Below are positions 2,118 to 25,991 of a stretch of DNA of 29,149 nucleotides, piece by piece. Under the pieces are notes generated by a model that worked only from the letters and a program-made list of their open reading frames with translations, was not told the origin of the DNA and did not search any database. Source of the DNA: a virus; IMG/VR virus record IMGVR_UViG_3300027823_000011, positions 1-29,149 of that record, one strand, 5' to 3'. The position numbers and the translations under genes were made by a program. The stretch's first letter is position 1. Every line of letters starts with the position of its first letter.

Positions 2118-2137
2118 AACAGAAATTATTAATGGAG
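2103..2137 (+). repeat. 35-nt gene-start leader repeat, copy A
   Basis: This stretch (acttatgtcaattaaaaca... ending in aatggag) recurs at 2960-2994 with two mismatches in 35. Both copies end in the GGAG ribosome binding site of the next gene: the HTH-repeat gene at 2146 and the small gene at 3001. Copy A covers the last codons of the RuvC-like gene. Confidence 0.8.
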
Positions 2138-2145
2138 CAAAAAAG

Positions 2146-2946: not shown

Positions 2947-2959
2947 GTAAAACAATAGG

Positions 2960-2994
2960 ACTTATATCAATTAAAACAGAAATTACTAATGGAG
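2960..2994 (+). repeat. 35-nt gene-start leader repeat, copy B
   Basis: This copy matches 2103-2137 at 33 of 35 positions and supplies the GGAG (2991-2994) for the ATG at 3001. It is intergenic here, whereas copy A is mostly inside a coding sequence. Confidence 0.8.
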
Positions 2995-3000
2995 ATCGTA

Positions 3001-5821: not shown

Positions 5822-8800
5822 TTAGTTATATTTCATCGCTCGCCGATTAGCCTCGGCTTGCTCGATCGCTAGCTGACTAGAAGTTTTTCTCAAACTATCT
5901 GAGTTGGGGATAGTGTAATTATTTATAACGCTGACATTACGGCTTTGGTTGTCTGCATTGGAATTGCTGGAAGTTCTTAAATCTGGCATTTTAGGACGGC
6001 CAGAATTTCTAAGACCTTGCAAGAAATTTAAGCCAAGGCTGCTAACGTCTTCCTGCGAAAATACGACTTCCCCTTTGTGGACTATACCCGCAGGATCGAA
6101 CTTCCCACCCTGACCAGTAAAGCCACCTTCCGAGAAACTAAGCCCTTCTGGAATTGCCGTATCAAAACTAACCCCGTCTATAGCCCCTAATGGATCGAAG
6201 CTTGGAGCCGCGCTGGCTCCACCGTTAAAAAGATTCTGAATACTAAAACCAGCATCAGGACTTCCACCTAATCCAAGCAAGTTTTTAAGATTACTAAAGA
6301 ATCCATCACTAGCGATTTTAGCTAGGCTTTTTAAGATCGAGACAGCCATATTATTAAAAGCGTCACCTATCGATTTAGTGCCTTGGAATATCTCATCAAA
6401 GAAATTACCAAAAGCTGTATTTGCTGTGTCGGCGATCGTTGTTCCCAAATCTTTGAATTGCTGTTTTAGGTTATCAATCTTAATCTCGGATAGTTCGATA
6501 GTCGCATCTCTTAGAGCCATAACCTGTTCGACTGATTCATAATCGGATTCTGACAATGCCTTGGGACTGCTGATCAAACGGTTATATTCTGCAACTTTAA
6601 GATTAGTCTCGGACTGAATTCTTAATGTCGCAGTTGCGATTCTAAGCCTATTAGCTCCAAACAAATCGCCACCTCCCCTCTCTTGGCGATTAGCAAGCTC
6701 GTCAGAAATTTCCCCCCGTAAATTGCCTAAAGTGTTTTGACCTCTTAATTGTTTTATTAATTGGTTAATATTTGCGCCACGAGTAGCGATCGCTTTATTA
6801 ATATCAGCATCTTTAACTTGCTCTTTAACAAAATCAAGCTGCTTAATCAGCGAATCAATATTTTTCTGCTCATCTATTCCAGTGGTCAAGCCTTTAAGTT
6901 TAACTTGAGTGAGTTTTTCTTGGGCATTGGCGATCGCAATCTTCAGCCTTAATTCTTCTTGGTTTAATCTAATTGTTTCTTCAAGATATTTGCGATCGGC
7001 TGCAACGCGATCGGGATTATAGATAGTTTTGGCATCGCGAACTGCATTGTCAAAATCTCGAAGGGCTTTATCATCTTCCAGCTTTTGAGTTTCGACCGAT
7101 AATCGCTGTGATTGTTCTCTACGCTCATTAGCAAGATTTGTATTATTGTCTATTTTTAATATTGCTAGTTTCGACTTTCTGATTGATTCAATAAGGTTAT
7201 AGTTTATGAGAATTTGCTGCTCTTCTTCTTTTATCTGAGCAAGTTCCAAATTCTTATCAATGCCAGGGACAGCTAAGGCTCTATTCGCTGCCTCGAATTT
7301 TTGTTGGTTAGCGGTTCGATCTATGGCAAACTGCCCAGCATTCTGGAATCCTTCTTTTGAAGATTCGATATATTGCCTAGTGATGGTGTCTTGAGTTTTA
7401 GCTAATAACTGATCGTATGTTGCGATCCCGATCTTGAGCTTGCCTTGGGCTTTAACTAAATCGCTATCATTGGCTTGCTTAATCAATGATTCTGTATCTT
7501 GGATGATCGCATCCCTTTGACGGACTTGGGCATCAAGAACGCCTTTCTGAGTATTCCTGCTGTCGTCTAATAATTTCCGATAATCCTCAATAGATTTAAT
7601 CAATCCATCAAACAAAGGATTGCCCTTTTTGGTTGTCAAATCTTGACCGACATCATCAGGATTTATGCCCAATTTATCAAGCGTGTATTTGGCAAAAGGA
7701 AATGAGTCAATTTTCTTTCTAGCTTCTGAGATTTGGGACTGGGAAGCTAAAGATCTTTCTTGATCGGAAACTAATGCCGACTCTTCCTGCCTTCTAGTTA
7801 TAGCTGCTGTGCTTTGTTGGGCTGTGCTTTGAGATGGGGATACCGAGATCGCTCGTAAAAGTTTTTTAATTTTTTCAACTCTGGCTAATCCTCCAGACGC
7901 AAGATTCCCCGCGCTATCGTTATCATAAGCTCCACGCCCGTCATTGCCGGGGATAGAGGCAAATTCTTGAGATAGATCTGTAACAGCAGAATTTATATTT
8001 TTTGATTTCCCAGACAAAAATGCTGCTAGTCGAGGCCTCTTTGCTGGGGAGATTAAGTATTGGAATAATCGTTCCTGATTTTTTTCATTAAATAACTCCC
8101 CGCCGCCAATGCCAGTATAATTAACCGCCTCCTTAAGGGTTTGTGGGATAAATTGATATTTCCCGACTGCAAATAAATCATTTCGTTGTTTGCTCAAGAC
8201 TTGAGCAATCGTCATTTCTGTTAAATTCTTGCCATACAGAGAAAACGCACCTCCGGGGGTATCTCCCGCTTTGCCACGATTTACAGAGTTATAGCCGCCT
8301 TCGCCACTAGCAATCTCAGCTTTAAGTTGCTCTAGTGCTGACGAATTAGACAGATTGACCTTACTGCTGTCAGTTCGGTTACCTAATCCTTCATTCGTGA
8401 TATCAATACTATCTTGTACCTTTTTTGCTTCAGTTTTACGGTTCAAAGCATCGATCGCGCCCTGAAGATTATTAACAGTCTGGGTAACACCAGCCAAGCC
8501 CGTTGCAGTCTCAGAAAGCAATTTGGAGGTACTAGATATAGCGTTTTCTAATAGCCCAATACCAGTTTTTAATAAATTCCTGCTAATCTCATCAGTGGCA
8601 GCTTTTTCGAGTTGCTTTAAGGCTGCTAAAGATTGATCTAAATTAGTTCTTCTAGCAGAGATATCTTTGCTAATTTCTTCGTATTGTTGCAATAATGCTT
8701 TTTCTTTTGCGACTGACTCATCTAAGCCTAAGCGATCGCCCGGTAATATTTGAGTTCTTCTTTGTCGTTCAAGATTTAATTCGGTTTCTAATACTTGCTG

Positions 8801-11800
8801 TTTTTTTACCAGTGCAGGAATTGCAGAGGCATCATTCCTGAAAAGATCCGACTGGCTTAAGGCTTGTTCTCTTTTCCCCTCAAATATCGTCTGTCTTAAT
8901 TCTGCTCCTGTGGCAATACCTCGATCGCTAAGAAACTGTGGAATCCCTGCTTTCTTCAATAGTTCATTAAGTCGCTTTGCATCTTGTTCTGCCCTTGGGT
9001 TCAAGAAAGTATTAGAGGCAGAGCCTCCGTCTCCCCTTAAAGCCTTAATTAGGGAATCCCTCCAATCGTCAATATTCTGTTTGCTTTCAATAAATTTCTC
9101 ATCAACCTTATCTAAATCCTTTTGAATTTGATTGGTTAAACTGGCAAAACTCTCCCCAGACGTATCGAGGGTTTCAAATACCTTAGTCCAGACTTCAGTA
9201 GCAATATAAGCGGCTGCTAATTGCTTAAGTAAAGTTCCGAAGAACCCTGAGAAGAACCCGCCTATGGCTTGAACAGTTGCCCCTAATTTGGCTAAAGCAA
9301 TTTGGAAGAATCCAGAGGCGACCGTAGCACCTCCCAATGCCGTACTAGTTGTGAAGATTGATGTATATAACCCGACAATTAGGCTAGTAACCTTACCTAT
9401 CAATCCAAACGAAACAAGAAAATTAGCAACCCCAAAAAGACTAGCTGTTTTTATAATTCCTAAAATGGAGTCATTTAAGGTATCGATCGCAAAAGCAGCC
9501 GTATTAAATAAAGCAGTTTCAAAAGGTTGCTTGGCTTTCCCGAATAGGTTTAAAAACTCAGTTGTGCTATTGCTCAATCTTGCTACCGAAGCTTGAGCAG
9601 TGCTACTAGCACCAACCAAGCCGACAGCATTCTCAGCATTTAATTGGGCGATAAATCTGGGTAAAAAATCTGTAGTAATTAGTTCCCCAGATTCAGCCAT
9701 TTTTTTAAGCTGAATATCTGTAACTCCTAACGCTCTAGCGGCAATTTGTAAACCGCCCGGTAATGCGTTGATGGTTGAACTTAGTTCTTTAAAAGTAATT
9801 ACAGAGCGATCGCTTAAAGTCGTAAAAGTATCAAATAGAGCTTTCTGCTGATCCTTATCAAAGCCTCGGACTGCTGAGGTGTCAGCAACGGCATTAAAAA
9901 TTGAGTCTGAAACTGAGCCTTCCAAGGCAGTCCCTTTGGTAGCAAAATTTAGCTGTGTCTGCCCTTGCAAAGCTGTCTCAAAATCAGTCCCTCTTTGCTG
10001 TGTTTGCTGTCTAAGGGCTTCAAGTCTTCCTATTGAGCTTTCAGACGTGGAGAAGTTAAAAGCTTTCTCCATTTGCTCAAAACGCAAAGTGACTTCGCTC
10101 GCAGCGTCTCTTAATTGCTTAATCCAACCGATCGCGCCTTGGATGCCTTGCCCAACTAAAAAGCCAGTAAATAGCTGCTTAAATATTCCTAGCCCTTGTT
10201 TGGCTCCTTCTGGAAGCTTGTTGATTGCATTTCTAATCTTATCAACCCACTCAACAAAAGTTTTAGGTAAATCCCCAGCCCCTTCTACGCCGTTATTAAA
10301 TCCTTCAGTTACCCATTTCCCGATCTGTTCAAATACTTTAGATGGAGAACTAATTCCTAGCTCATTTTTTGCGCCATCAATCACCTCCTTACCAAATTTC
10401 TTACCTTGTTTTTTGCCTTTTATGGCTGACTCAAAACCACTATTAATATCTATTCCTAGTTTTTTCGCTAGTGCATCAATCCCATCAAAACCTTCAAAAT
10501 TTAAGAAGTCTTTAAAACTACCTTTAGTATTTGACTCTCTAAATTTCGCTTTTACCGCTTTGTATAAAGGGACTTTACTTTGAGCGTCTGCCTTAAAAAA
10601 GCCTCGATCAACTCTATCGCTATCAACATATTGATTTGCATAAGCTTCTTTTTCCGCTAAAAGCTCTTCTTTCCTGAATACCTTCTTAAATTCCGAAAGC
10701 ATATGAGCGGGAATTCTTGCCTCTAAGTTTTTAACACTTCTTTCTGCACTAGCCTTAATATCTTTGTGTTTTATTAGTGGTTTTCCAGTTTTGCCGATCA
10801 CATTAAAAAGCGGTTGATCCCGATTCTTGCCAAAAGCGGATTGTAGAGCATGGGTGTATTCGTGCGTTAATACACTGGCAAAGTCTTCAAGGTTGTTCTC
10901 AGAGACAGTAATTTGGTTTTTATTGGGATCATACTGACCGCCCACTTCGCCTAAACCTTTTTTAATTGCAACATCTGGGAAAGACTTTCCGACTTTTTTT
11001 AATGTAGACTTTGTTGGATCTTTGGCAGAAGATCCAATATCTTGGAATAACTTTCTAAGCTCTTGGGCTGGTGTATTCGCTTCGCCCACAACTTTCTTAA
11101 AGTCATAAACTAATTCAATTACGCTTTTTACATAACGTTCAAGGAATGATTTTTTCTCGTCTAAAGTCCCTTCAAAACCTTCTAACCCATTCTCAAGTCC
11201 CTCGACAACAAACTTGCCTATGCGCTGAAAAACCCTAGAAGGGGATTTAATCCCTAGCTCATCTTCAGTCCCATCAATTATTTCCTTCCCTAACTTTTTA
11301 CCTTGCTTTTTCCCATCGGCTCCAAGATCAAATCCAGCCGAAACATTCTGACCTATTGAAGGTGGCAATCCTGCTAAATCAAATTGAGTAGCAGCGCGCC
11401 GTGCTTCCATAGATCCCTTAACCCCTTTGAGGCTTTTGTCTCTATTTGCTTCAGGGATTTTATCGAATAATCCATAAGCTGCGTCTGTAGCTTTTATAAT
11501 GCGATCGCCTAATTCTTGAGCGAGTTTGTTATCTCCTTTAGCGATCGCATCTTGGAATTTCTTGCCTAATCCATCGGGACCCTTGAGCTTATTATTTATA
11601 TTTTTGAATGCTACGATCGGATCGATATTACTATCTGGCTTAGGGATAGGGTTAATCTTTTCTTCATTTTTATCGTTTGTTTCTTGGAAGTAAGAAATAA
11701 ATTCCTTTTGGAAATCTTTATTTCGGATATATTCCCTTAGCTCATGGTTCTTACCTCCCGCAACATCTTTGTTCCTAGCGGAATTCCCAAGCAAGTCTAA

Positions 11801-13246
11801 AGTAGGAAATCTGATTGGATCATCAGTCCCAACCATGTTGGTATAGTCTTTATCTTGATCGAATAAAATACCACTCTGAGGGCTACCAACTCCCAAGCCT
11901 TTGATATTTGTTATTCCTGCTTGTTTGAGGATTGCTAAAGCTTCCGAGGCAATATTCCCGCCGCCAGAATAGCCAGTTAGGTTAATGGGCTTATCTGGGA
12001 ATTGCTTGCGATAGGCGATCGCCTTTCCAGCCATTGCGATCGCGTCGGGGTTATAGCCTAAAATTGTATTCTCAAAAACAGCTTGGGCATAATTTCTGCC
12101 CATTGTGACTACTTTTTCTGTTGCTTCTGTGAAAGATTTACCTTGGAGTTGATCTGGGAGCTTAACTGGAAGGCGATCGCTAAAGGGATTGGCACTAGGG
12201 ATAACAGCAGAATCCTTAACCCCTAATTTCTTAAAAAGGATTCCCATGCCTCTAGCGGTTTTTGCAGAATCTTCGCCACCAGCTTGGGACAACCCACCAG
12301 CTACGATGTTTATTGATGGGCTGTCGTTAATCCCGTCAATATCTTTCTGACTAAGATTTAAGTCCGCAGTCCTTGCAGCCTGTCTAGCCTTACGGACAGA
12401 ATCCCCAACTTGCTGTTGCTTCCTATTTCGCAAAAAAGCAAAAGCCTCCCGCAAATCGGCATTTGTTTCTTTAGCCATATCCTCAATATCTTCGCCATAT
12501 TTGGCGGCGGCTTTAAGAGGATCGTTAATGAATTCAAAAGCTCTTTTCAATGAAGCCAAAGCTTTATTTGCAGTTTTGATCGCGCCCATCGGATCTTCTA
12601 GCGCAGGACTGTTATCTAAAAACTTATTAGTTTGTCTAGCGGTATATGTGCCTGTTACGCCGCGCCCAATACCTTCAAGAAATCCAGTCGTAATTCTAGC
12701 TAGTGGCGAGTTTGATTTTTGATTTTCCTTAATTAATTGGGAGAAGCCTTTCTCCAAAGTTTTGACAACTGGAGCCGAATAATCGCCTAAATTTTTACCG
12801 TCAATTTTTATCGTGGCATTGGCGATCGCCATGAATGAATCTTTAATATTAAAAGATCCTGTACTTAAAGATTGGACACCTATTTGCAATCCAACTTTTG
12901 CTAATGCTGATAAGTCAAAGCTTAGTTTGATTGGCTCGGTAAACCGCTTAACTGTAGCCTTAAAATCTTCTTCTAAGCTCTTTAACCCAGACTTATCGAA
13001 AATAAGTTTGATCGGATTCTTAGGGGCAATATCTTCCGCTTTGATCTGTTGGACTGACTTTACTAAGTCTTGCGGTTGTAATACCCTTGGCGATGGAGCA
13101 TATCCGCTATAAGCAGTTGAGCTTTTTTGTATACCTTCCCATTGTTTTTTTAGCTCATCCGTTCCCTTGGCGATCGCCTGTAAGTCCCGAATAGTTTGGT
13201 TAAAACCTTCGGTAGTAAACTTAGTGGTATAGGTATCTCTAGCCAT
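5822..13246 (-). CDS. Tail tape measure protein with embedded hydrolase-, metallopeptidase- and lysozyme-like modules
   Basis: The protein has 2474 residues. Residues about 1065-1205 match the tape-measure N-terminal domain (ALPGGLQIAARALGVTDIQLKKMAESGEL). Hydrophobic segments lie at about 1255-1300 and 1308-1350, followed by long coiled coil. The C-terminus (GGFTGQGGKFDPAGIVHKGE) is the lambda gpH-type end. Three modules are inserted. Residues 310-510 carry a GYSGG nucleophile elbow (S427), acidic D475/D476 and H501, like an alpha/beta hydrolase. Residues 760-890 carry HEYTH (795-799) and a later EKEAYA (E867), like a zinc metallopeptidase. Residues 1635-1785 carry IASGEGGYNSVNRG (E1649) and FAVGKYQFIPQTL, like a phage lysozyme. 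Tape measures set tail length and can carry peptidoglycan-cutting domains for DNA entry; roles of the other two modules are inferred. It follows the G/GT chaperone genes in the classic order, with an eight-base overlap. Confidence 0.93.
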   Translation of the reverse strand: MARDTYTTKFTTEGFNQTIRDLQAIAKGTDELKKQWEGIQKSSTAYSGYAPSPRVLQPQDLVKSVQQIKAEDIAPKNPIKLIFDKSGLKSLEEDFKATVKRFTEPIKLSFDLSALAKVGLQIGVQSLSTGSFNIKDSFMAIANATIKIDGKNLGDYSAPVVKTLEKGFSQLIKENQKSNSPLARITTGFLEGIGRGVTGTYTARQTNKFLDNSPALEDPMGAIKTANKALASLKRAFEFINDPLKAAAKYGEDIEDMAKETNADLREAFAFLRNRKQQQVGDSVRKARQAARTADLNLSQKDIDGINDSPSINIVAGGLSQAGGEDSAKTARGMGILFKKLGVKDSAVIPSANPFSDRLPVKLPDQLQGKSFTEATEKVVTMGRNYAQAVFENTILGYNPDAIAMAGKAIAYRKQFPDKPINLTGYSGGGNIASEALAILKQAGITNIKGLGVGSPQSGILFDQDKDYTNMVGTDDPIRFPTLDLLGNSARNKDVAGGKNHELREYIRNKDFQKEFISYFQETNDKNEEKINPIPKPDSNIDPIVAFKNINNKLKGPDGLGKKFQDAIAKGDNKLAQELGDRIIKATDAAYGLFDKIPEANRDKSLKGVKGSMEARRAATQFDLAGLPPSIGQNVSAGFDLGADGKKQGKKLGKEIIDGTEDELGIKSPSRVFQRIGKFVVEGLENGLEGFEGTLDEKKSFLERYVKSVIELVYDFKKVVGEANTPAQELRKLFQDIGSSAKDPTKSTLKKVGKSFPDVAIKKGLGEVGGQYDPNKNQITVSENNLEDFASVLTHEYTHALQSAFGKNRDQPLFNVIGKTGKPLIKHKDIKASAERSVKNLEARIPAHMLSEFKKVFRKEELLAEKEAYANQYVDSDRVDRGFFKADAQSKVPLYKAVKAKFRESNTKGSFKDFLNFEGFDGIDALAKKLGIDINSGFESAIKGKKQGKKFGKEVIDGAKNELGISSPSKVFEQIGKWVTEGFNNGVEGAGDLPKTFVEWVDKIRNAINKLPEGAKQGLGIFKQLFTGFLVGQGIQGAIGWIKQLRDAASEVTLRFEQMEKAFNFSTSESSIGRLEALRQQTQQRGTDFETALQGQTQLNFATKGTALEGSVSDSIFNAVADTSAVRGFDKDQQKALFDTFTTLSDRSVITFKELSSTINALPGGLQIAARALGVTDIQLKKMAESGELITTDFLPRFIAQLNAENAVGLVGASSTAQASVARLSNSTTEFLNLFGKAKQPFETALFNTAAFAIDTLNDSILGIIKTASLFGVANFLVSFGLIGKVTSLIVGLYTSIFTTSTALGGATVASGFFQIALAKLGATVQAIGGFFSGFFGTLLKQLAAAYIATEVWTKVFETLDTSGESFASLTNQIQKDLDKVDEKFIESKQNIDDWRDSLIKALRGDGGSASNTFLNPRAEQDAKRLNELLKKAGIPQFLSDRGIATGAELRQTIFEGKREQALSQSDLFRNDASAIPALVKKQQVLETELNLERQRRTQILPGDRLGLDESVAKEKALLQQYEEISKDISARRTNLDQSLAALKQLEKAATDEISRNLLKTGIGLLENAISSTSKLLSETATGLAGVTQTVNNLQGAIDALNRKTEAKKVQDSIDITNEGLGNRTDSSKVNLSNSSALEQLKAEIASGEGGYNSVNRGKAGDTPGGAFSLYGKNLTEMTIAQVLSKQRNDLFAVGKYQFIPQTLKEAVNYTGIGGGELFNEKNQERLFQYLISPAKRPRLAAFLSGKSKNINSAVTDLSQEFASIPGNDGRGAYDNDSAGNLASGGLARVEKIKKLLRAISVSPSQSTAQQSTAAITRRQEESALVSDQERSLASQSQISEARKKIDSFPFAKYTLDKLGINPDDVGQDLTTKKGNPLFDGLIKSIEDYRKLLDDSRNTQKGVLDAQVRQRDAIIQDTESLIKQANDSDLVKAQGKLKIGIATYDQLLAKTQDTITRQYIESSKEGFQNAGQFAIDRTANQQKFEAANRALAVPGIDKNLELAQIKEEEQQILINYNLIESIRKSKLAILKIDNNTNLANERREQSQRLSVETQKLEDDKALRDFDNAVRDAKTIYNPDRVAADRKYLEETIRLNQEELRLKIAIANAQEKLTQVKLKGLTTGIDEQKNIDSLIKQLDFVKEQVKDADINKAIATRGANINQLIKQLRGQNTLGNLRGEISDELANRQERGGGDLFGANRLRIATATLRIQSETNLKVAEYNRLISSPKALSESDYESVEQVMALRDATIELSEIKIDNLKQQFKDLGTTIADTANTAFGNFFDEIFQGTKSIGDAFNNMAVSILKSLAKIASDGFFSNLKNLLGLGGSPDAGFSIQNLFNGGASAAPSFDPLGAIDGVSFDTAIPEGLSFSEGGFTGQGGKFDPAGIVHKGEVVFSQEDVSSLGLNFLQGLRNSGRPKMPDLRTSSNSNADNQSRNVSVINNYTIPNSDSLRKTSSQLAIEQAEANRRAMKYN

Positions 13247-17060: not shown

Positions 17061-17756
17061 TTATTTAGTTTTGGTTAAAGAATTTTTAGCAAATTTAGCC
17101 CAGATATTATGATTTGATAAAAGCTTAGATATTATCGCGTCCGCAAATCTCCTAATCTCTTCTTGGCTAACCGAGTCAAAGTCCATTCTTGAATTGGGCG
17201 ATCTGTAATGAAAAGTAATAAACCCTAAAGGAAGATCGTCTCCAGCTAAAAAATAGTTGATCGAGAATCTAACTCCTAAAGACTCCAAGAATCCACGATA
17301 AGAAATATCCGTAATCTCATCCGTAATTCTTTTGGAGTAGCCATTAGCCAAAAATGACTTTAGAATTATATTGCTATAGTTAGATACGACAGAATTTACA
17401 TACCCTGATACTCTTGCTACTCCGAACTGTTCCACTTCGTGTGTGACAGTACAACCTTTGATCGAGGCTCCATCTATTGTATATGTCCCATTTGTGAATC
17501 TGGTTAGAATCACCCTATCAGCATTGGTTCGATCAAGTAGGGTGATTAATATCTGGTCGATCGCCTCATCCTGCTCTCTACTAAAAGATAGCTTCAATCC
17601 CTGCCTTTTTATCCAAGGGGAAATAAACTCTTTTACTACGACCGTGCAAAATGTTAGGACTACCAAGCTCACTGTAGCGATTACTTCAGTTTGGAATAAC
17701 TGGCTTGGGCTTTGAATTGGAGCGATCGGTTGTTCGATTTGATTGGTAGTTTGCAT
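17061..17756 (-). CDS. Membrane-anchored GAF-like protein next to the endolysin (holin candidate)
   Basis: The protein has 231 residues. One hydrophobic segment (about 23-42, VIATVSLVVLTFCTVVV) is followed by basic residues (KEFISPWIKRQGLK), which suggests the large C-terminal part stays in the cytoplasm. The rest (about 60-215) resembles a GAF fold: ADRVILTRFTNGTY, a TVTHEVEQFGVARVSGY segment, FLESLGVRFSINYFLAGDD, and LPLGFITFHYRSP then a DFDSVSQEEIRRFADAIISKLL helix. GAF domains bind small ligands. A single membrane anchor beside the endolysin fits a holin or lysis regulator, but no holin family is recognised. The start overlaps the upstream stop by one base (TAATG). Confidence 0.6.
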   Translation of the reverse strand: MQTTNQIEQPIAPIQSPSQLFQTEVIATVSLVVLTFCTVVVKEFISPWIKRQGLKLSFSREQDEAIDQILITLLDRTNADRVILTRFTNGTYTIDGASIKGCTVTHEVEQFGVARVSGYVNSVVSNYSNIILKSFLANGYSKRITDEITDISYRGFLESLGVRFSINYFLAGDDLPLGFITFHYRSPNSRMDFDSVSQEEIRRFADAIISKLLSNHNIWAKFAKNSLTKTK

Positions 17757-18043
17757 TATTCCCTTAAACCTAATTCCGTAAACGCTGCGTCATCAATGGG
17801 TTGAATATTAGTAATCGTATAAGTAACGGTTTCAATTACTAAAGTATCGCCATGCTTGACTGAGCCTAAATCTGAAGTCTTTGCTGTGGCTAAAATGCTT
17901 CGACCTTCGGCATTAAAGGTAAATTGTTGATAAGCTTTGTCAAAGAAAACCTTGATAGTTTTAGAAACGGAATCCTGAATTAGCACTGCTGCGATCGCTA
18001 ACTCAGATTCATTTAGGAAAATATTAAGGTTTTCTCTAAACAT
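17756..18043 (-). CDS. Head-tail joining protein (lambda FII-like)
   Basis: The start at 18043 gives a 95-residue protein. A longer reading back to 18181 would run through the preceding gene and adds an Arg-rich, non-family N-terminus. The pattern is IFLNESELAIAAVL, KTIKVFFDKAYQQF, RSILATAKTSDL, then VKHGDTLVIETVTYTITNIQPIDD and a terminal ELGLRE. It matches FII-type head-tail connectors: a first strand with 'IFD', a 'GDxLxI' turn and a 'YxIxxIxPDDxxxTxLxL' end. These sit between connector and tail in lambda-like phages. Only one base separates it from the upstream stop, and no ribosome site is visible, so translation is probably coupled. Confidence 0.72.
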   Translation of the reverse strand: MFRENLNIFLNESELAIAAVLIQDSVSKTIKVFFDKAYQQFTFNAEGRSILATAKTSDLGSVKHGDTLVIETVTYTITNIQPIDDAAFTELGLRE

Positions 18044-18044
18044 T

Positions 18045-18461
18045 TTAAGTCGGTAATTGCGCGATCGCATAAGTGATTGAAACTTCCGCAGTCTGTCCAG
18101 CCCCGCCAATCGTACCCGCCGCCGCGCCGTCGGCAGCACAGGCAAAAATACCGATAGTTTCTTCTGCTGCCAAAATCGCATCAGGAATAACTAGATTTCG
18201 GACTGGTTGAGCAGTTAAATCTGTACTAATCGCATATTTATTGGGGACTGCTGTAGCTGTTATTCTGCCTAGCCCAACCTTTACGGCGGTTGTCGCCAAT
18301 ACCGCGATCGGTAAAACCAGAGTAGCAGCATAGACAATGGCTCCTAGCGGAATTTTTTTGAGTAGAGTAAAGTTAGCGGCGGGAGTTGTGAGCGCGATCG
18401 TCTCTTCAATTGTGACAAACTTAAAACCCGCAGGTACGTTTGTTGGCAGAGTTGTACTCAT
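18045..18461 (-). CDS. Putative capsid decoration or head protein
   Basis: The 138-residue protein is rich in Ala, Thr, Ile and Val, with alternating strand-like segments (FKFVTIEETIALTTPAANF and GAIVYAATLVLPIAVL) and almost no charged residues. It reads as a beta-rich structural protein. Its place between the major capsid gene and the head-tail joiner is where lambda-type phages encode decoration and completion proteins. No family motif is recognised; the assignment is by composition and position. AGGATAAATA precedes the ATG, and a near-copy of this leader (aaataggataaat) occurs about 30 bases further upstream. Confidence 0.45.
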   Translation of the reverse strand: MSTTLPTNVPAGFKFVTIEETIALTTPAANFTLLKKIPLGAIVYAATLVLPIAVLATTAVKVGLGRITATAVPNKYAISTDLTAQPVRNLVIPDAILAAEETIGIFACAADGAAAGTIGGAGQTAEVSITYAIAQLPT

Positions 18462-18505
18462 TTATTTATCCTATTTGTTTATTAATTCCTTAAGATTTAT
18501 CCTAT

Positions 18506-18712
18506 TTATTTAGGTGAAGGAGGATCGACCTCCTTACGTTTTGGCGGGACATCAGGCTCTAATTTCTCGACTTGGTGAGCCACCAAGTTATATTCCGATG
18601 GGGTTAATGAAATCCGTTCCCCTTCATAGGAAGTTTTATTTGGGCGTTTAGGATCGCTGTCTGGCAAAGAGACGTTAAACCCTTTGCGGACAATAAATGT
18701 TTCGGTTGGCAT
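18506..18712 (-). CDS. Small head-region protein, 68 aa
   Basis: The product has a short beta-strand core (ETFIVRKGFNVSL, then SYEGERISLTPSEYNLVAHQVEKLEP) and a charged Pro-rich tail (PPKRKEVDPPSPK). The plan of strand, 'GExIxLTxxE', helix and short tail resembles the very small proteins (DUF7210-like) often found near capsid or connector genes in siphophages and Mu-like phages, but the match is weak. It lies directly downstream of the capsid gene, so it may be a head accessory protein. Function unknown. Confidence 0.5.
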   Translation of the reverse strand: MPTETFIVRKGFNVSLPDSDPKRPNKTSYEGERISLTPSEYNLVAHQVEKLEPDVPPKRKEVDPPSPK

Positions 18713-18736
18713 AATCTGAGTTTAATTAGTGGTTAC

Positions 18737-18781
18737 TTAGAGAGTGGAGATTTAGAGAGTAGAGATTTAGATAGTAGCTAC
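18737..18781. repeat. 15-bp tandem repeat spanning the capsid stop codon
   Basis: On the + strand the units are ttagagagtggagat (18737-18751), ttagagagtagagat (18752-18766) and a decayed third copy ttagatagtagctac (18767-18781). The third copy holds the capsid gene's stop and last codons. The array sits between the capsid gene and the 68-residue gene; it may be slippage, or a spacer lengthened by duplicating the gene end. Confidence 0.75.
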
Positions 18782-20737
18782 TAAATCAGTAATCGCAGCA
18801 AAAGCTTCAACCCGACGAAATTGAATATCGCAAGTTTGCATTGCTCGGATCATCAAAGTCCCTGACTCGTAACCACGTCCAAAGGGATTAGGTAATAAGT
18901 CTAAAATTCCCCAAGAAGCGAACACTACTTGACTGAAATCTCCATAAATTATACTGGTCAAATTGGTTCCACTACCTTTAGTCAGGTTCCGAGGAACTTG
19001 ATTTGACCGCATAACAGGATAACCGTTCAACATTCCAGGAGTCCCGGGGCTTAAACCGCTATCAGTGCCGATCCACATAGGGGAACCAGCAGTATCTTTT
19101 AGTTTTTTCATTACCCCGACCCCTCTGGCGCTTGAAAAGTAATGGGTCTGTCCTTCTTCATCTGCATTCAGATCAGACACCTTTGTTTCCAAATCGATCA
19201 GATTATCGTAAGTAAGAGTGGTTCCGTTCGCCCCGCCTGTTACGTTACCGATCCCTGCGGTATTTAGGATACCTCTAGGCTCACTATTTAGTCCCGATCC
19301 TGCGATCGCGGCTAAGTCCATAGCTAATGCCATCACGATCACCAAGTCTTCCCGAACTAATTGCTCAATATCGGGAGTGCTTTGCAACATCATCAATCTA
19401 GTGATCGCTGATAAAGCTGCAAGGGTGTTAGGTCGGAATGATAATTTCCCGAATCCACCCTCGGATTGTGGAATTTCCCCACCTTCAGGAACCCAGTACG
19501 CTGTAGAAGTCGAAATACGCCGAGGGATATCTAAATTCCCCACTAAACCAGCCAACATTCGTGCGCCCATCTGCATTATTTTTGGGCGGGTTCGGAGGAT
19601 ATCATAGAAGCTACTACTGTCCAAAATTGTAGCGACTAGATTCCCGCCAGTTGTAGGGGTATTGGTTGCATAAGTCGCCCGTGCGATCTTTGCTGTTGAA
19701 TGCCCAACCACTCTACTAACGGCTTCATGATCGACTGTTAGATCGGCAAAAGGCAAGATAATATTAGCACTCGCTACCCCAGTCCGTTTGATCATTTCTT
19801 CATGGCATTCAAGCTCAAACGATTTGAATCCGACAGCTCCCCAATTCCCATCCATAAAATCCCTTATGGCTCGGATTACTGAGAAAGATTTTTGCTCTTT
19901 GTTGGTAAATCCTAGCTTTAGGTCGGCTAGAGGCTCTTGTTTTGGCTGCTTCCCACTAAAAGCTCTATAAACAGTGGCAATATCGCTGCCATCGTCAATA
20001 AATTTATTAGCCAAATCTGTATCCGCATATTTTTTGCCGACTTCATAAATCTCCTTAATTCTTTCTCGCTCTAATTTCCTAGCTAAATCTAAATCCACAT
20101 CTTCTAATACTGTTGGCATTACGCCCCCCTTATTTGTTCTTGTCAGGTCAATTCCCAAATCTATATCTATAGTATCAGATGACTCGATTTCTACAGGATA
20201 CAAATCCTCGATCGCGTTGCTCCTTAAAATGCCTACCGTAGAATCAGCAGGATCACCAACTAAACTAGCATGGCTTGGTTGCCACCGCGTAGCTCTATAG
20301 ATAACTGGGTACTCGTCTTTTTTGCTCTCGCGTTTCATTTTGGAAACCTTGGCACTCACGGAAACATTACGGATAATCCCATCTAACACCTGCTGGTATT
20401 TGACTTCCGAGAAATCATCTTTAGCGAATCGAACCGCTATCTCCACTTCTTTATTTACAATTTCTGCGCGTTCGATCACGCCGACAATAAGAGATCCATT
20501 ATGCTCGAACAGTAGATTAGAGCCGTTACGAAACCTGCTCAAATCTACAGATTCTTCCGAGTGATCTAAGATGCACGTTCCAAAGTAATCAGGGCATGGG
20601 GTTTCGCTGGAAATCGTAAAAACTACTGTACGTTTTTCCAGATCCCAAGATTCAGCCCTCTTGATTGCCGACTGTCGGCGCCGCATTGGCAGCCTGTCCA
20701 GAATCTGAGTTAGTTGATTCGGTAGTGTTTGTTGCAT
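18767..20737 (-). CDS. Fused prohead protease and HK97-fold major capsid protein
   Basis: The protein has 656 residues. Residues about 35-170 resemble a caudovirus prohead serine protease: NLLFEHNG (H79), then IIRNVSVSAKV (S126 or S128), and RWQPSHASLVGDPADSTVGI, where this family usually has Glu and here His (H156) stands. Residues about 210-265 are a charged helical linker of scaffold (delta-domain) type (DLARKLERERIKEIYEVGKK). Residues about 285-656 are the HK97-fold capsid protein, ending IQFRRVEAFAAITDL. In separate-gene phages the protease cuts the capsid N-terminus during maturation; here both are one polypeptide and must cut in cis or trans. GGAGG eleven bases before the ATG confirms the start, which lies 86 bases inside the portal gene. 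Confidence 0.9.
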   Translation of the reverse strand: MQQTLPNQLTQILDRLPMRRRQSAIKRAESWDLEKRTVVFTISSETPCPDYFGTCILDHSEESVDLSRFRNGSNLLFEHNGSLIVGVIERAEIVNKEVEIAVRFAKDDFSEVKYQQVLDGIIRNVSVSAKVSKMKRESKKDEYPVIYRATRWQPSHASLVGDPADSTVGILRSNAIEDLYPVEIESSDTIDIDLGIDLTRTNKGGVMPTVLEDVDLDLARKLERERIKEIYEVGKKYADTDLANKFIDDGSDIATVYRAFSGKQPKQEPLADLKLGFTNKEQKSFSVIRAIRDFMDGNWGAVGFKSFELECHEEMIKRTGVASANIILPFADLTVDHEAVSRVVGHSTAKIARATYATNTPTTGGNLVATILDSSSFYDILRTRPKIMQMGARMLAGLVGNLDIPRRISTSTAYWVPEGGEIPQSEGGFGKLSFRPNTLAALSAITRLMMLQSTPDIEQLVREDLVIVMALAMDLAAIAGSGLNSEPRGILNTAGIGNVTGGANGTTLTYDNLIDLETKVSDLNADEEGQTHYFSSARGVGVMKKLKDTAGSPMWIGTDSGLSPGTPGMLNGYPVMRSNQVPRNLTKGSGTNLTSIIYGDFSQVVFASWGILDLLPNPFGRGYESGTLMIRAMQTCDIQFRRVEAFAAITDLVATI

Positions 20738-22220
20738 TTTGATTTTGTCCTCCTTTTTGGTAATAGCCTGATATGTCTACGCCGTACTTTGCTGCTAATT
20801 TCTGTTCCCTCGCTCTGGTTTTTAGAAAATCTTCTATATTATGCCCGTACTCTGCCAATGTATCACTGATCGTGGATTGCCCACTTTGTAAGGCTTCGGC
20901 ATTTGCTTGTACTTCTTTTTGCGGATCAACATAAGAAAACCTGCGAGGATACCAATGAGGTTTATTATATTTTCTTCTATCGCTAAAATAATTTCTAATC
21001 TTAACTACACCCGCTAAAACAGCAGCATCAAGCCAAGTTTCAAAAACTCTTTGATGCAACATTTTGATATATCGCAACCTTTCAAATTTCCAATTATCTC
21101 GGAATAGCATTTCTTCGCCTCGCATCCCTGAATAATTATAATCTTTAATATTGCCTGAATATTTACCCGGTGCAATTCCCAAGGCGATCGCTGCCATCCT
21201 GTTTCCGTAATCTAAAAAAGGCAACGAATTAGCACCTGAAGCTGAGGGGATAAAAGGGATCATACTCTCCCCGGGGTTCATTTGTTTATAGACTCCCGGC
21301 TCTAAATATTCTGAAACTTTAGTGCGATCGTAAAAATCCTGATCGCTGATCGGGTCTGGTGTTGTGATTAGTCCCATAATACAAGCTTCCAGCCTAGCCC
21401 TTATTAATAGAGCTTCCTCAAATTCTTTGATGTGATGCGATCGCACTAGAGTAGGGAAAAACCAACTAATCCCGCGTACTTGCCCAATGTCGTCACTTCT
21501 ATATATATGGATAATGTCTTCTGCTAGATTTCGTTCTGGGGTTAAAAGATTTTTAGCCGTATTATTAAACGAATAATCACCGGGATCCCAACCTCGAACA
21601 TGATAGGCGATCGGTCTTTTCCATTTATCAACTTCAACACCTAGCCTAATCTCGTCTCCAAGGTTTGTTTTCCCGTTCCAGTCATCGGCCAGTTGTCTGC
21701 CGGGGATAAACTCTAAAGCTAATGGGATTTTAGAATTACCAAATCGCTCACGAACAAAACGGATTAGAGCGTCTCCACTTACCGCAGGATGATGGACAGC
21801 CATTTGCTCGATCTCGTTAAAATGCAACAAGCCTGAAACATGGCAATTTGTAGCTAGGCACCATTCCTGCCACTCTTCTTCGATCATTTCGTTAGTGCTA
21901 TCGTCAAGATCTCCATTGGCTAAGAGGATCTGCGATTCCATCGGGACACCCTCCCCGATAATATCATTCTTAAAACAGCGCACGGCATGAGAGCCATTTC
22001 CATTTCTAAATTCTTCTTCTGCCCTTGCTCGTACCTGTCGGTATGAGCCACGGATTGCATTATCGATACTGCCCGCGCTTGATGTTGTCCAGTCGTTTGT
22101 AGTTCTCCCGATCGCCGCGCCGCTATAGCCCGATCGCTTTACTTTTGGTTCAGGTATGGCAGCTTTAGGGTTTAGGAAATTCCATATAGGCGATCGCTCG
22201 ATATTAAAAAAGTCTTTCAT
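20652..22220 (-). CDS. Portal protein (lambda gpB-like)
   Basis: The 522-residue protein matches lambda-type portals. The sequence NAIRGSYRQVRARAEEEFRNG precedes a helix ending HAVRCFKNDIIGEGV. Later come SGDALIRFVRERFG, LALEFIPGRQLADDW, IHIYRSDDIGQVRGISWFFP, EEALLIRARLEACIMGLI and MAAIALGIAPGKYSGNIKDYNYSGMR, and the C-terminus is disordered (QNATNTTESTNSDSGQ). The portal is the ring through which DNA enters and leaves the capsid. The start at 22220 is preferred over a TTG at 22310, because the longer form would run deep into the gpW-like gene and lacks a ribosome site. The gene still overlaps that neighbour by 17 bases and the capsid gene by 86. Confidence 0.93.
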   Translation of the reverse strand: MKDFFNIERSPIWNFLNPKAAIPEPKVKRSGYSGAAIGRTTNDWTTSSAGSIDNAIRGSYRQVRARAEEEFRNGNGSHAVRCFKNDIIGEGVPMESQILLANGDLDDSTNEMIEEEWQEWCLATNCHVSGLLHFNEIEQMAVHHPAVSGDALIRFVRERFGNSKIPLALEFIPGRQLADDWNGKTNLGDEIRLGVEVDKWKRPIAYHVRGWDPGDYSFNNTAKNLLTPERNLAEDIIHIYRSDDIGQVRGISWFFPTLVRSHHIKEFEEALLIRARLEACIMGLITTPDPISDQDFYDRTKVSEYLEPGVYKQMNPGESMIPFIPSASGANSLPFLDYGNRMAAIALGIAPGKYSGNIKDYNYSGMRGEEMLFRDNWKFERLRYIKMLHQRVFETWLDAAVLAGVVKIRNYFSDRRKYNKPHWYPRRFSYVDPQKEVQANAEALQSGQSTISDTLAEYGHNIEDFLKTRAREQKLAAKYGVDISGYYQKGGQNQNATNTTESTNSDSGQAANAAPTVGNQEG

Positions 22221-22758
22221 ACCCAAATCCCATATATAAATTTCTCGTACTAGGGCGATCGCCTCGCTGTTCAGCTTCCCGTCTAACTCTAGATCGCCAA
22301 TAGCCTTCAAGTTCGCTTAATTCCTGCAAGGTGAAATTCTCTACTTCACGATTGCCGATCTTATAGCGTTGTACGGCTCCGCCTTCTAGCTTGGCTGTAA
22401 TTGTAGCCTGAATTGCTGCCAATGTTTTCTCAGCGTAGCTAGAACCGTCATAAGGTACTAACGTGGTTTGGAGGTTTGGCTTTACTTCTATCTGTCCGTT
22501 ACCGATATTTATGCGACTTCCGACCTTGCTAACATAAGCTTGAAAATACATCACGCCAGAAATTAAAGCTAACGACTGGGCAGTAGTGATCGTGGTTTCG
22601 TAGCTTGAGGCATTAGCTGAAGCTGTTAAATCCAAAATCGAACTACCCCGAAGGGAATAGTTAAGCGTATATTCTGGACTCGAATACTCGGAGAATCGAT
22701 CAAGCCAAGATATTGAATCGCCACTGGTAATTATTCTGGGTATGGCTAATAGGATCAC
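22204..22758 (-). CDS. Head-tail connector protein with gpW-like C-terminus
   Basis: The 184-residue protein starts at GTG 22758 with AGGA eight bases upstream. The N-terminal half (SGDSISWLDRFSEYSSPEYTLNYSLRG and a YFQAYVSKVGSRINIGNGQIEV segment) is a beta domain found in phage proteins of this position. The C-terminal half (YAEKTLAAIQATITAKLEGG, YKIGNREVENFTLQELSELEGYWRSRVRRE) is gpW-like: a helix, a 'YxIxxR' turn and a second helix. Such proteins sit between terminase and portal genes in lambda-like phages and help complete the head. It is the first gene of the head operon downstream of the + strand cassette. Confidence 0.75.
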   Translation of the reverse strand: MILLAIPRIITSGDSISWLDRFSEYSSPEYTLNYSLRGSSILDLTASANASSYETTITTAQSLALISGVMYFQAYVSKVGSRINIGNGQIEVKPNLQTTLVPYDGSSYAEKTLAAIQATITAKLEGGAVQRYKIGNREVENFTLQELSELEGYWRSRVRREAEQRGDRPSTRNLYMGFGYERLF

Positions 22759-22853
22759 AAGTTTATTCCTTGTCTAAGGATTTGTTCATCGTAGCATTAG
22801 TCTAATCTGAGCTTATCAACAGATCCTAGATTGATGGGATTAGGACTAAAAAT

Positions 22854-22859
22854 ATTATA
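22854..22859 (-). promoter_or_regulatory. Possible -10 element for the head operon
   Basis: The minus strand has TATAAT inside a TATATATAATATT run, about 100 bases before the GTG at 22758. A weak -35 (TGTCAA, complement of the + strand TTGACA) lies further upstream. The head operon needs a promoter here if the cassette terminator or opposing transcription blocks read-through. AT-rich sequence alone could give this match. Confidence 0.3.
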
Positions 22860-22881
22860 TATAAAATCTTTGATTAATAGC

Positions 22882-22910
22882 TTGACATAATCTAAGATAG
22901 GTAGTAAATT
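22882..22910 (+). promoter_or_regulatory. Sigma-70-type promoter for the + strand cassette
   Basis: TTGACA at 22882-22887 is a perfect -35 element. After a 17-base spacer, TAAATT (22905-22910) is a four-of-six -10. It lies upstream of the first leader copy and the ATG at 22984. Together with the terminator at 24168 it makes the cassette a self-contained transcription unit. Confidence 0.6.
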
Positions 22911-22928
22911 AAAGGGGTGGCAAGGGTA

Positions 22929-22983
22929 AAGCGCAACTAACCCAAGCCACAAAGTCAAACTAACTAAATTAAGGATAACTCAA
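22929..22983 (+). repeat. 55-nt 5' leader, copy 1
   Basis: The sequence from aagcgcaactaacccaagcc to aaggataactcaa directly precedes the ATG at 22984. It matches 23230-23284 at 53 of 55 positions and includes an AAGGA ribosome site. No strong hairpin is seen. The TAAC and TAACT steps could be a protein-binding pattern. Confidence 0.9.
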
Positions 22984-23229
22984 ATGACTAATTTAATTGC
23001 CATTGGTGAATATATTCAGATTTCACAAGATGAGGAGGCAAAGGTGGATGGCTATGAATTTGCCGATAAGCTTTTAGGAGGATACGCCTATCATTCCGTA
23101 GTTTTGATTGAAGGAGTTTGGATGATGCCACACCCAACGGATGATACAGGTGGTTATATTAAAGCCCCCAAAGATATAAAAATTACAGAATCAGCAGACT
23201 ATTCCAAAGTAAGGAAAATTCGTAAATAG
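22984..23229 (+). CDS. Cassette gene 1, hypothetical protein of 81 aa
   Basis: The product (MTNLIAIGEYIQISQDEEA at the start) reads as a small mixed alpha/beta protein with aromatic residues (YAYHSVVLIEGVWMMPHP) and a basic end (VRKIRK). No family is recognised and no membrane segment is present. It is the first gene after the cassette promoter. It is flanked by the two leader copies, so recombination between them would delete exactly this gene. Confidence 0.6.
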   Translation: MTNLIAIGEYIQISQDEEAKVDGYEFADKLLGGYAYHSVVLIEGVWMMPHPTDDTGGYIKAPKDIKITESADYSKVRKIRK

Positions 23230-23284
23230 AAGCGCAACTAACCCAAGCCACAAGGTCAAACTAACTAAATTAAGGATAAATCAA
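23230..23284 (+). repeat. 55-nt 5' leader, copy 2
   Basis: Second copy of the leader (see 22929-22983), ending at the ATG of the 141-residue gene at 23285. The two differences are a/g in the cacaa(a/g)gtc part and c/a in aaggataa(c/a)tcaa. Confidence 0.9.
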
Positions 23285-23710
23285 ATGGCTATCAGAAGAA
23301 ACAAAGAAACTATCAATTCGGCAACGTTTTGGAAAGAAAACCCCTTTGAGGTCGATTTACCAAACTCGGCAAATACTGGATTTAATATAATTGCTTTACC
23401 CTATCTTGAGCAGGATCAAGATGGAAATATGATTTTAATTGATGGTTACGTCAAAGTCCAATCTTGGACTATTCAAGACATACCAACAATCTTGGATGAC
23501 CAAGGGCTTTTAATGAAAGAGCTAAACAGTAAGGTTTACTTTGATATTCCAGTAGGACATAAATGGTTCGAGGAACTTAGTAAAAATACCCCAGACAAAG
23601 ACTGGATTACTGTCCAAATTGACGGCGTACAATGGCAGAGTTTCGGGTTTGCTCCATCAGGTTTATACAGTGATCAAGCTGTCAGTGCTTTGAAACTTGG
23701 AGGTATTTAA
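23285..23710 (+). CDS. Cassette gene 2, hypothetical protein of 141 aa
   Basis: The start is MAIRRNKETINSATFWKENP. The rest alternates strands and turns (NTGFNIIALPYLEQDQ, YVKVQSWTIQDIPTIL, KVYFDIPVGHKWFEEL) with acidic loops, and ends WQSFGFAPSGLYSDQAV. It looks like a soluble globular protein and is not recognised. Its stop shares one base with the next start (TAATG), so it is probably co-translated with the ribbon-helix-helix-like gene. Confidence 0.6.
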   Translation: MAIRRNKETINSATFWKENPFEVDLPNSANTGFNIIALPYLEQDQDGNMILIDGYVKVQSWTIQDIPTILDDQGLLMKELNSKVYFDIPVGHKWFEELSKNTPDKDWITVQIDGVQWQSFGFAPSGLYSDQAVSALKLGGI

Positions 23711-23982
23711 TGCCTAGAGGTGGCGATCGCATTGGGAGCGGCAGGAAAAAGCTCCCAGAGTGTGACAAGAGGATAAAAACCTCAATCACGCTTGATGCTG
23801 AAACCCTTGCATGGGTAAAAAAGCTAGGTAGTAGCCCAACAATTAACAGGGCTTTGGATATATCCCATAGGCTTGTAGAAAATGCAATATTGTTGCAGAC
23901 TTTGGATGCGATCGCTCTTACCCGTGGAATAGCGATCGGTGAGTTGGTTGAAGAATTATTGATTGAAGCCGTCACAGGATAA
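23710..23982 (+). CDS. Small ribbon-helix-helix-like DNA-binding protein
   Basis: The protein has 90 residues. The N-terminus GGDRIGSGRKK is the basic 'GGxRxGxGRKP' tail common in small phage and cyanobacterial DNA-binding proteins. It is followed by RIKTSITLDAETLAWVKKLG (a strand then helix, as in a ribbon-helix-helix) and helices to the end (HRLVENAILLQTLDAIALTR, GELVEELLIEAV). It would be expected to dimerise on DNA; regulating its own cassette through the duplicated leader is a natural guess but is not shown. A HIP1 site lies inside codons 5-8. Confidence 0.6.
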   Translation: MPRGGDRIGSGRKKLPECDKRIKTSITLDAETLAWVKKLGSSPTINRALDISHRLVENAILLQTLDAIALTRGIAIGELVEELLIEAVTG

Positions 23983-23994
23983 GGAGGAAAACCT

Positions 23995-24162
23995 ATGAAA
24001 AACAAATTAATGTACCGAGTCTACTGGGAGCATAAGATCACGAGAGTCCAAGGGCATGGTAAATGGTTCCAAAGCAGAGAACTCATTCAATCATGGGTAA
24101 ACGGCTTAAATGCCAAAGATAATGACTGCATCCATTACGTTGAATCTGGTACTGACAATTAA
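23995..24162 (+). CDS. Cassette gene 4, hypothetical protein of 55 aa
   Basis: An AAGGAGG seven bases before the ATG is the best ribosome site in the cassette, which argues that this short frame is translated. The product (MKNKLMYRVYWEHKITRVQ, then GHGKWFQSRELIQSWVNGLN and a short acidic end) has a strand-turn-helix plan and is basic in its first half. No family is recognised. It is the last gene before the terminator; the stop lies five bases before the hairpin. Confidence 0.65.
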   Translation: MKNKLMYRVYWEHKITRVQGHGKWFQSRELIQSWVNGLNAKDNDCIHYVESGTDN

Positions 24163-24167
24163 ATCCT

Positions 24168-24196
24168 AGCCCTAAGTTAACCGCTTAGGGCTTTTT
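24168..24196 (+). terminator. Rho-independent terminator of the + strand cassette
   Basis: AGCCCTAAG (24168-24176) pairs with CTTAGGGCT (24184-24192) across a 7-base loop and is followed by TTTTT (24192-24196). It lies just after the last cassette gene and reaches the end of the convergent terminase gene. In the other direction it lacks a T run, so it should stop mainly + strand transcription. Confidence 0.9.
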
Positions 24197-25991
24197 ATTC
24201 GCTCTCTAGCGATTTGTTTATTCTAGCTTCTTCTTTGTCCCAGTCCCAAGCTTTTAGGTTAATCCCGATCGTATAGGCTGCGGCGAGATTGTATTTTTCG
24301 CAATCTAAAACCTCGTTTCGGCGCTTGGGCAGAACCCGCCAATATTCTTTAGTAATCCCGTTTTTAGCTATTTCAGTCACAAATTTTTCCGAGGTTAGCT
24401 CACTGTAATATTGATCTGCTATGCCAATGGGGAAATGGTAATAGCCGCGCTGATCCTCCCGTTCTAAGCCTAATCTACCATAGATCGTAGCTGTAGCAGT
24501 ATCTGAGCCAACCAGATAAAGCCTGATTGATTGGGGAAACGATCGCCCCTTATAATCAAAATCCTGCGTAGACGGACGGCTAACTATTGGCTTATTTTTG
24601 GTTGACGATCCTTTAATGGGAATTACACCCCGACGGGCATTATTACGGCAATAGTTATAAACTTCATTTTTGCTGTTGCCATCGCCAGAATCGATCGCCA
24701 TCCTGCGGATTTTGAGTTTAGCCCCTGAATGATGGTCAAATTCCATATCAAGAAAAGTATCTAATTGCTCCCAAGGCTCTTTAGTAAAAATATCACCCCA
24801 CAATTCTTGGTAATAGATTAACCACGATTTCTCATCTCTACCCCATGCTCTAATTACTAGTGCTAGGCGATCGTGTTGTACGTCTACACCAGCCGTTAAG
24901 ATTAAGCCACCCTTGGGTACAGTCAGGATTTTATAGGGTTCGGCTCTAGCCTGTAATTTGGCATAGTCTAATTCTTTGCCAGTCACCTCTTCATAGGGTT
25001 CACCTAAAGAAGTGTTTACCCATGTTTTGAAGCTTTCAGGGTTATCTTTGCATTCCAAAAAGTTTACGACTATATCGCCGAAAGTTCTCCAAGGTGAATA
25101 AGCTTCCCATATATGAAATCCTGCTCTATTGGTAAATTTTGCTGTAGGAATCCATACCCCATCCCTGAGCATTTCGGTTTTATGTGTATTTCTGATTATG
25201 CCTTTACAATTTGGGCATTCGTACCAAGCGTGTTGGGGAGAGTCTTCATCCCATTTAATATTTGTCCAATACAGTATTTGAGGCATACGGCAATGTGGAC
25301 AGGGTACATTGTAATATCTTTTGTCACTACGCTTAAAAGCTTCGGCAATTTTACTTTTACCTTCATTGCCAGGAGTCGAGAATCTGCCAATTTTGCGATC
25401 AGGAAAATTATTAGCTCTCCTAATAATTAAACGTGATGAGTCCCCTTCAGAGCCTGACGTACTCATTCTGTCCTCTTCATCAATCAAAATTACCTTGCAA
25501 GATCTTGACGATACTGATGATGGGGAATTTGCTCCAATAATATTAAGATTCCCGCCAACAAAAGATTTATGCAAAAGTGTATTTTGGGAATCTCTGGTTT
25601 TTATCGAAACTATATCGCTCAGTGATGGGCAATCTCTCAGCATTTTAGCTATGCGATCGCGGCTAAAAGTTTCAGCCATATCAACAGTTGGCTGCGCTAC
25701 AAGAATTGGGCAAGGGGCTTCAAGAATATAATATAAAATTACATTTTCAAGACAAGAAGTTTTCCCGACCTGCGTACTGGACATAAAATCAACTTCTTCC
25801 ACGCTTGGATCGCTAAAGCAATCCATTATTTCCTTAAGATAAGGAGTTCTAGAAGTTCTCCATCGCCCTGGTTCTGAAGAGGCTTCTGTCGATAATACTC
25901 GATGGTGATCCGCGTTTTCAGAAACCGATAATTTAAGCCTCGGAGTCAATAAGGTCAGAGTCTGCTTCGCTATTTCCCACGCTGTCTGCAA
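24195..25991 (-). CDS. Terminase large subunit (lambda gpA-like)
   Basis: The 598-residue protein has the gpA-type ATPase and nuclease. SSTQVGKTS (71-79) is the P-loop, VILIDEED (167-174) is Walker B, RFSTPGNEGKS is the coupling segment, and two pairs CPHC (231-234) and CPNC (259-262) form a zinc-ribbon-like insert. AGVDVQHDRL (D370) and AIDSGDGNS (D434) carry nuclease acidic residues. With the portal and small subunit it cuts and packages DNA. The start is TTG at 25991: GGAG eight bases upstream fits it, and the frame is closed further upstream by a TAG. It overlaps the small-subunit gene by 59 bases. Confidence 0.95.
   Translation of the reverse strand: MQTAWEIAKQTLTLLTPRLKLSVSENADHHRVLSTEASSEPGRWRTSRTPYLKEIMDCFSDPSVEEVDFMSSTQVGKTSCLENVILYYILEAPCPILVAQPTVDMAETFSRDRIAKMLRDCPSLSDIVSIKTRDSQNTLLHKSFVGGNLNIIGANSPSSVSSRSCKVILIDEEDRMSTSGSEGDSSRLIIRRANNFPDRKIGRFSTPGNEGKSKIAEAFKRSDKRYYNVPCPHCRMPQILYWTNIKWDEDSPQHAWYECPNCKGIIRNTHKTEMLRDGVWIPTAKFTNRAGFHIWEAYSPWRTFGDIVVNFLECKDNPESFKTWVNTSLGEPYEEVTGKELDYAKLQARAEPYKILTVPKGGLILTAGVDVQHDRLALVIRAWGRDEKSWLIYYQELWGDIFTKEPWEQLDTFLDMEFDHHSGAKLKIRRMAIDSGDGNSKNEVYNYCRNNARRGVIPIKGSSTKNKPIVSRPSTQDFDYKGRSFPQSIRLYLVGSDTATATIYGRLGLEREDQRGYYHFPIGIADQYYSELTSEKFVTEIAKNGITKEYWRVLPKRRNEVLDCEKYNLAAAYTIGINLKAWDWDKEEARINKSLESE

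Follow-up and report, generated by a model that had tools for sequence, protein, structure and literature searches.

Gene order around the cassette

What are four small plus-strand genes doing between the terminase and the head genes of a virus whose virion genes are read mostly from the other strand, and what might their products act on? We addressed this question in a 29,149-nt stretch of DNA (the window), which is one IMG/VR virus record and a fragment of a genome. Because the window contains 58 HIP1 sites (GCGATCGC) in 29 kb and its portal is 35% identical to the Synechococcus phages S-LBS1, S-CBS1 and S-CBS3, we assign it to a cyanobacterial virus; on this sequence evidence, it is a cyanophage related to these three phages. 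When genome contigs were searched with the terminase, none of the 80 loci retained came from a cyanobacterium.

Early-type genes occupy the plus strand from 406 to 5819 and encode, among others, a RuvC-like resolvase, an HTH protein, a DNA methyltransferase and a thymidylate synthase. The first complete early gene (406-1632) has a Gp3-like match in Pfam (E = 2e-13), that is, to a recombination directionality factor-like protein. The protein encoded at 2131-2946 is built of several helix-turn-helix repeats (HTH_23, three stretches), and the frame at 2-217, open at the contig start, has no Pfam match and resembles by eye a homing endonuclease C-terminus (NUMOD-like). Most of the virion genes are on the minus strand, beginning with terS and terL at ~26.4 kb and ending with the tape measure gene at 5.8 kb. 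The tape measure protein (5822-13246, minus strand; 2,474 aa) contains an apparent metallopeptidase-like stretch with HExxH (DUF6782, below the cut-off) and, judged by eye, stretches that resemble a lipase (GYSGG) and a lysozyme.

The cassette itself (22882-24192, plus strand) runs antisense to the late operon. On one side lies the GpA-type terminase large subunit gene terL (24195-25991, minus strand; profile matches), and on the other the genes for a head-tail joining protein (22204-22758, minus strand; phrog_5774, E = 7.5e-33) and the portal (20652 to about 22238, minus strand; profile matches). The placement given in the preliminary description of this DNA, between terminase and head genes and opposite to the late genes, is therefore correct. 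The comparison of the terminase-portal gap in related phages, which it had proposed, is equally clear: terL and the head-tail joining gene are 15 nt apart in S-LBS1, 29 nt in S-CBS3, 29 nt in S-CBS1 and 3 nt in the roseophage CRP-831, as against 1,436 nt in the window. Since its flanks stand 3-29 nt apart in these relatives, the cassette can be read directly as an insertion with respect to the named phages.

Two other contigs carry near-identical DNA from this region. One (L082, from another metagenome), aligned to window positions 20091-24460, is 100% identical over 20400-24171 and ~7-11% diverged at both ends, while the other (L170, from another sample), aligned to 17257-21600, differs at 1 base in 4,344. 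Two strains may share an identical cassette-bearing block by recent exchange, or the ends of L082 may be assembly artefacts.

Four coding ORFs, a terminator and a candidate promoter

The preliminary description of a four-gene plus-strand cassette within the late operon holds up in its main parts: a TTGACA-type promoter site is followed by four ORFs of 81, 141, 90 and 55 aa, each led by a Shine-Dalgarno (SD) sequence, and by a strong hairpin terminator. ORF A (22984-23229) encodes an acidic orphan (pI 5.2). ORF B (23285-23710) encodes a second acidic orphan (pI 4.45, net charge -8), and its stop overlaps the start of ORF C (TAATG). ORF C (23710-23982) encodes a probable ribbon-helix-helix DNA-binding regulator with a basic N-terminus (RGGDRIGSGRKK), and ORF D (23995-24162) a basic orphan preceded by the strong SD AAGGAGG. 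All four lie on the plus strand, start with ATG and have an SD-like purine stretch before them. None of 5,000 dinucleotide-model sequences of the same stretch attained the coding coverage of the cassette, and none had four SD-led ORFs; an ORF of at least 141 aa arose in 0.06% of them (n = 5,000). By the codon usage of the virus, the annotated frame fits best for all four ORFs, most weakly for D, and both GC skew and AT skew reverse their sign across the cassette.

Base composition tells, if anything, against a moron with counter-defence genes, in that the cassette is only slightly enriched in AT over its surroundings (38.8% GC, dropping to about 36-37% across A and B, with flanks at 42.2% and 40.4%). 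The HIP1-core sequence CGATCG likewise counts against this reading, occurring three times in the cassette, all within ORF C. We note that ORFs A and B have no such site, a distribution that would fit, if weakly, these two genes having come in after C.

The hairpin terminator is confirmed at 24168-24192 (plus strand), where a 10-bp stem is followed by TTTTTATT; the predicted energy is -15.4 kcal/mol (z -4.4), and the T-run is found on the plus side only. Nothing reached gathering level in an Rfam scan, and one group II intron hit below threshold that overlies the terminator was put down to chance. The promoter fared less evenly. A candidate sigma70-type site (TTGACA-N17-TAAATT, 10/12 matches in a motif scan) is present in a suitable position at 22882-22910 on the plus strand and ranks among the best-scoring plus-strand sites of the region. 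By count, however, sites of this kind are no commoner than chance: the scan found 10 promoter-type sites with 9.2 expected, and the exact form TTGACA...TAnnnT occurs 3 times with 1.3 expected. Scan counts do not separate this candidate from chance, and it is its position that makes it a plausible promoter. We see no clear operator, because the only palindrome with arms of at least 5 in the promoter region is TTATATATAA, a 5-bp AT arm.

A shared leader precedes two unrelated genes

Repeat searches reveal a feature that the preliminary description overlooked, namely a direct repeat of 62 nt (59/62 identical, 95%) that precedes both ORF A (22929-22990, plus strand) and ORF B (23230-23291, plus strand) and includes the SD and start codon. 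Copy 1 extends over the AAGGAT SD into the opening codons of ORF A, while copy 2 begins exactly past the stop of ORF A, and there is no further copy within the window. The two copies fold at 0 and -1.9 kcal/mol, which excludes a structured RNA, and they are devoid of promoter hexamers. The heptamer AACTAAC, over-represented in the window and present twice per leader copy, was rejected as an enriched motif, its four leader sites being accounted for by the duplication. Thirteen other viral contigs each contain a single match to a 19-nt core of the leader, which we take as chance given the size of the collection.

The proteins behind the two leaders, A and B, share no significant similarity. Since one leader is common to both of these unrelated genes, recombination at the leader homology may have brought in A or B. 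The simplest histories compatible with this arrangement would be the placement of one leader-gene unit beside another, or the swapping of a gene behind a duplicated leader.

Three orphan proteins and a candidate regulator

As the preliminary description had stated, three of the four products are unrecognised: apart from the near-identical contig L082, searches with A, B and D gave no significant match in Pfam, PHROGs, NCBIfam, PADLOC, PDB sequences or the sequence collections covered. The latter comprised phages, plasmids, viral contigs and genome contigs, with the ORFs covered differing per collection and the sensitive search not extending to cyanobacterial chromosomes. No homologue of A, B, C or D was found among the phages, none of A, B or C among the plasmids and none of B among the genome contigs, and in the viral contigs A, B and C matched only in the near-identical contig L082. 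The cassette DNA had no match in phages or plasmids, and no Acr or Aca homologue of the cassette genes was found, with none in Pfam, PHROGs or NCBIfam. AlphaFold single-sequence models of A and B reached pLDDT values of 37 and 44, too poor to use. The lack of homologues of A, B and D in the searched collections counts against the reading as a moron with counter-defence genes.

ORF C fits the DNA-binding-like gene of the preliminary description, though weakly, as its Pfam matches to the BrnA antitoxin (E = 0.011) and RHH_1 (E = 0.1) both fall below the curated cut-offs; we regard it as probably, if on slender similarity, a ribbon-helix-helix regulator. Among ~34,000 ORF frames from the fetched relatives, its best non-self match is a small antisense protein in the terL-portal slot of another phage locus, L048 (42% over 36 aa, E = 0.005 in that genome). 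Two more matches, in the same slot of L083 and L046 (E = 1.1 and 4), are too weak to count. These matches suggest that the slot carries a recurring type of regulator, which does not in itself prove homology of C. In L048, a small antisense orphan gene overlaps the RHH-like gene (10900-11620, minus strand), and the slot genes adjoin a terminator with a 15-bp stem.

The terL-portal slot holds variable cargo in relatives

A survey of 218 loci having both terL and portal, reduced to 109 by crude dereplication, reveals that terL-portal distances group at about 250-430 and 590-740 nt. The distance exceeds 800 nt in 18 of the 109 representatives, a share (about 16%) that is rough because the dereplication holds different gap lengths apart. 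The cargo of the slot visibly turns over between loci. It includes AbiD (E = 4e-57) and Abi_2 in L087 (10216-11106, plus strand), SoFic in L097 (5462-6634, minus strand, antisense; E = 2e-122), RelE with an HTH partner in L088 (10192-10840, plus strand), a ParE toxin with an RHH-like partner in L083 (10118-10633, plus strand), ArdC in L046, pRha with the antisense RHH-like protein in L048 and antisense orphans in L099 and L104. L097, L087, L088 and L083 are (pro)phages found in bacterial genome contigs. Four further loci (L112, L115, L124 and L155) carry virion-like genes on the late strand, so position in the slot does not by itself imply defence.

With near-adjacent flanks in the named relatives, a terminator and a candidate promoter of its own, and AbiD, toxin-antitoxin pairs, Fic and ArdC in the same slot elsewhere, the cassette deserves the term moron-like that the preliminary description gave it, and its identity as a moron is well supported at the sequence level.

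Proposed function and alternative explanations

We favor, with a probability of roughly 55% for the model as a whole, a four-gene moron at a recurrent terL-portal cargo slot that carries early host-interaction or counter-defence genes and an Aca-like regulator. An accessory transcription unit would have been inserted in the slot between terL and the head-tail joining and portal genes, opposite to the late operon. Host sigma70 polymerase would transcribe A-B-C-D from 22882 early in infection or, alternatively, in a lysogen, should there be one. A and B, both small and acidic and each made from its own copy of the leader, would act on the host, with a host defence system as their likeliest target. 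C, as a ribbon-helix-helix repressor, would damp its own promoter, and late transcription running head-on through the slot would help to silence the cassette later. We infer the counter-defence role of A and B from the layout and the slot, and the timing of transcription and the regulation by C are likewise proposed.

Several of these observations could be arranged differently. In a toxin-antitoxin or abortive-infection unit, B (or D) would be the toxin and C the RHH antitoxin and autorepressor, directed against competing phages or serving maintenance. B and C overlap, BrnA is the best, if weak, match of C in Pfam, and toxin-antitoxin pairs occupy the same slot in L083 and L088; all this speaks for such a unit, as does the order of toxin before antitoxin, known for BrnTA and HigBA. 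We nevertheless give it a minor share of the probability, since A, B and D lack a toxin family match in Pfam, NCBIfam and PADLOC, the genes number four and not two, and the strongly acidic B (pI 4.45) is unlike RelE, ParE and BrnT toxins. Lysogenic conversion, raised in the preliminary description, would have the cassette expressed from a silent prophage for the benefit of the host or the exclusion of superinfection. It is possible, at a rather low probability: prophage accessory loci typically stand antisense within the late region (PMC7067206), the window encodes the Gp3-like recombination directionality factor-like protein and S-LBS1 has an integrase, but S-CBS1 and S-CBS3 have none (PMC6157547). 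The 29-kb window itself contains no tyrosine or serine integrase (Phage_integrase or Resolvase domain), an absence that in a genome fragment is no proof, and this part of the preliminary description was not borne out.

We consider it improbable that the cassette is a timing module, in which an antisense transcript and the RHH protein would hold back the late genes until needed. Its head-on orientation to the late operon and its likely DNA-binding protein would suit this role; however, plus-strand transcripts would end at the terminator (24168-24192), short of terL, so that little antisense RNA to the late genes is expected, and relatives manage without the cassette. Most unlikely of all are accessory virion genes (decoration or fibre proteins), known from some phages with an enlarged slot. 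The virion-like inserts of L112, L115, L124 and L155 offer a precedent, but they lie on the late strand, whereas the cassette is antisense, comes with a terminator, a candidate promoter and a probable DNA-binding gene, and gives no structural PHROG match.

More tentatively, A and B might found new cyanophage counter-defence families under the control of a new RHH-type Aca-like regulator, and the slot might prove a general cargo site in phages with GpA-type terminases. The means by which cyanophages overcome host defence are poorly understood, and a bounded cassette with three orphans, in a slot that holds defence, toxin and antirestriction genes in relatives, provides a short list of candidates. 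The slot might serve as a source for mining unknown defence and anti-defence genes across GpA-terminase phages; it offers a simple search rule (an enlarged terL-portal gap with antisense genes), and its cargo in (pro)phages merits a systematic survey.

Comparison with known systems

Morons are defined as ORFs between a promoter and a terminator, inserted between genes that are adjacent in relatives (PMC4378225), and the cassette, with a candidate promoter and a terminator, resembles lambdoid and other morons in this layout. It differs in having four genes where one is usual, in a base composition that barely deviates and in its antisense orientation to the late operon. Small orphan genes beside a probable DNA-binding gene recall acr-aca operons, and an upstream sequence common to unrelated genes recalls archaeal anti-defence genes (PMC4378225, PMC11065993); unlike these systems, the cassette has no Acr or Aca homologue and no operator palindrome, and its repeat is a leader without a promoter. 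Similarly, the PeSL cassettes of T4-like phages (PMC4503421) place a repeated non-coding element, a possible recombination homology, before unrelated genes, but the repeat described here lacks the early promoter and the stem-loop of a PeSL unit, shows no promoter hexamers and occurs in two copies only. In the literature found, no such cassette is described for cyanophages.

The location has closer parallels. P2-like phages and P4 carry defence hotspots, small high-turnover loci of 1-5 kb between two conserved phage genes (PMC9122126); these belong to another phage group, are cos-proximal (gpA to the portal gene gpQ) and have proven anti-phage activities, whereas the cassette is known from sequence alone. 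In the Wolbachia phage WO, the same slot, from terminase/gpW to portal, is variable and contains RelE/ParE, nuclease or muramidase genes (PMC10299305). The terminase beside it is also of the GpA type and related to that of the window, with a terL identity of about 41-43%; the WO genes are not those of the cassette. The terL-portal slot thus belongs to a type of site described before, which the present survey finds over a broader range.
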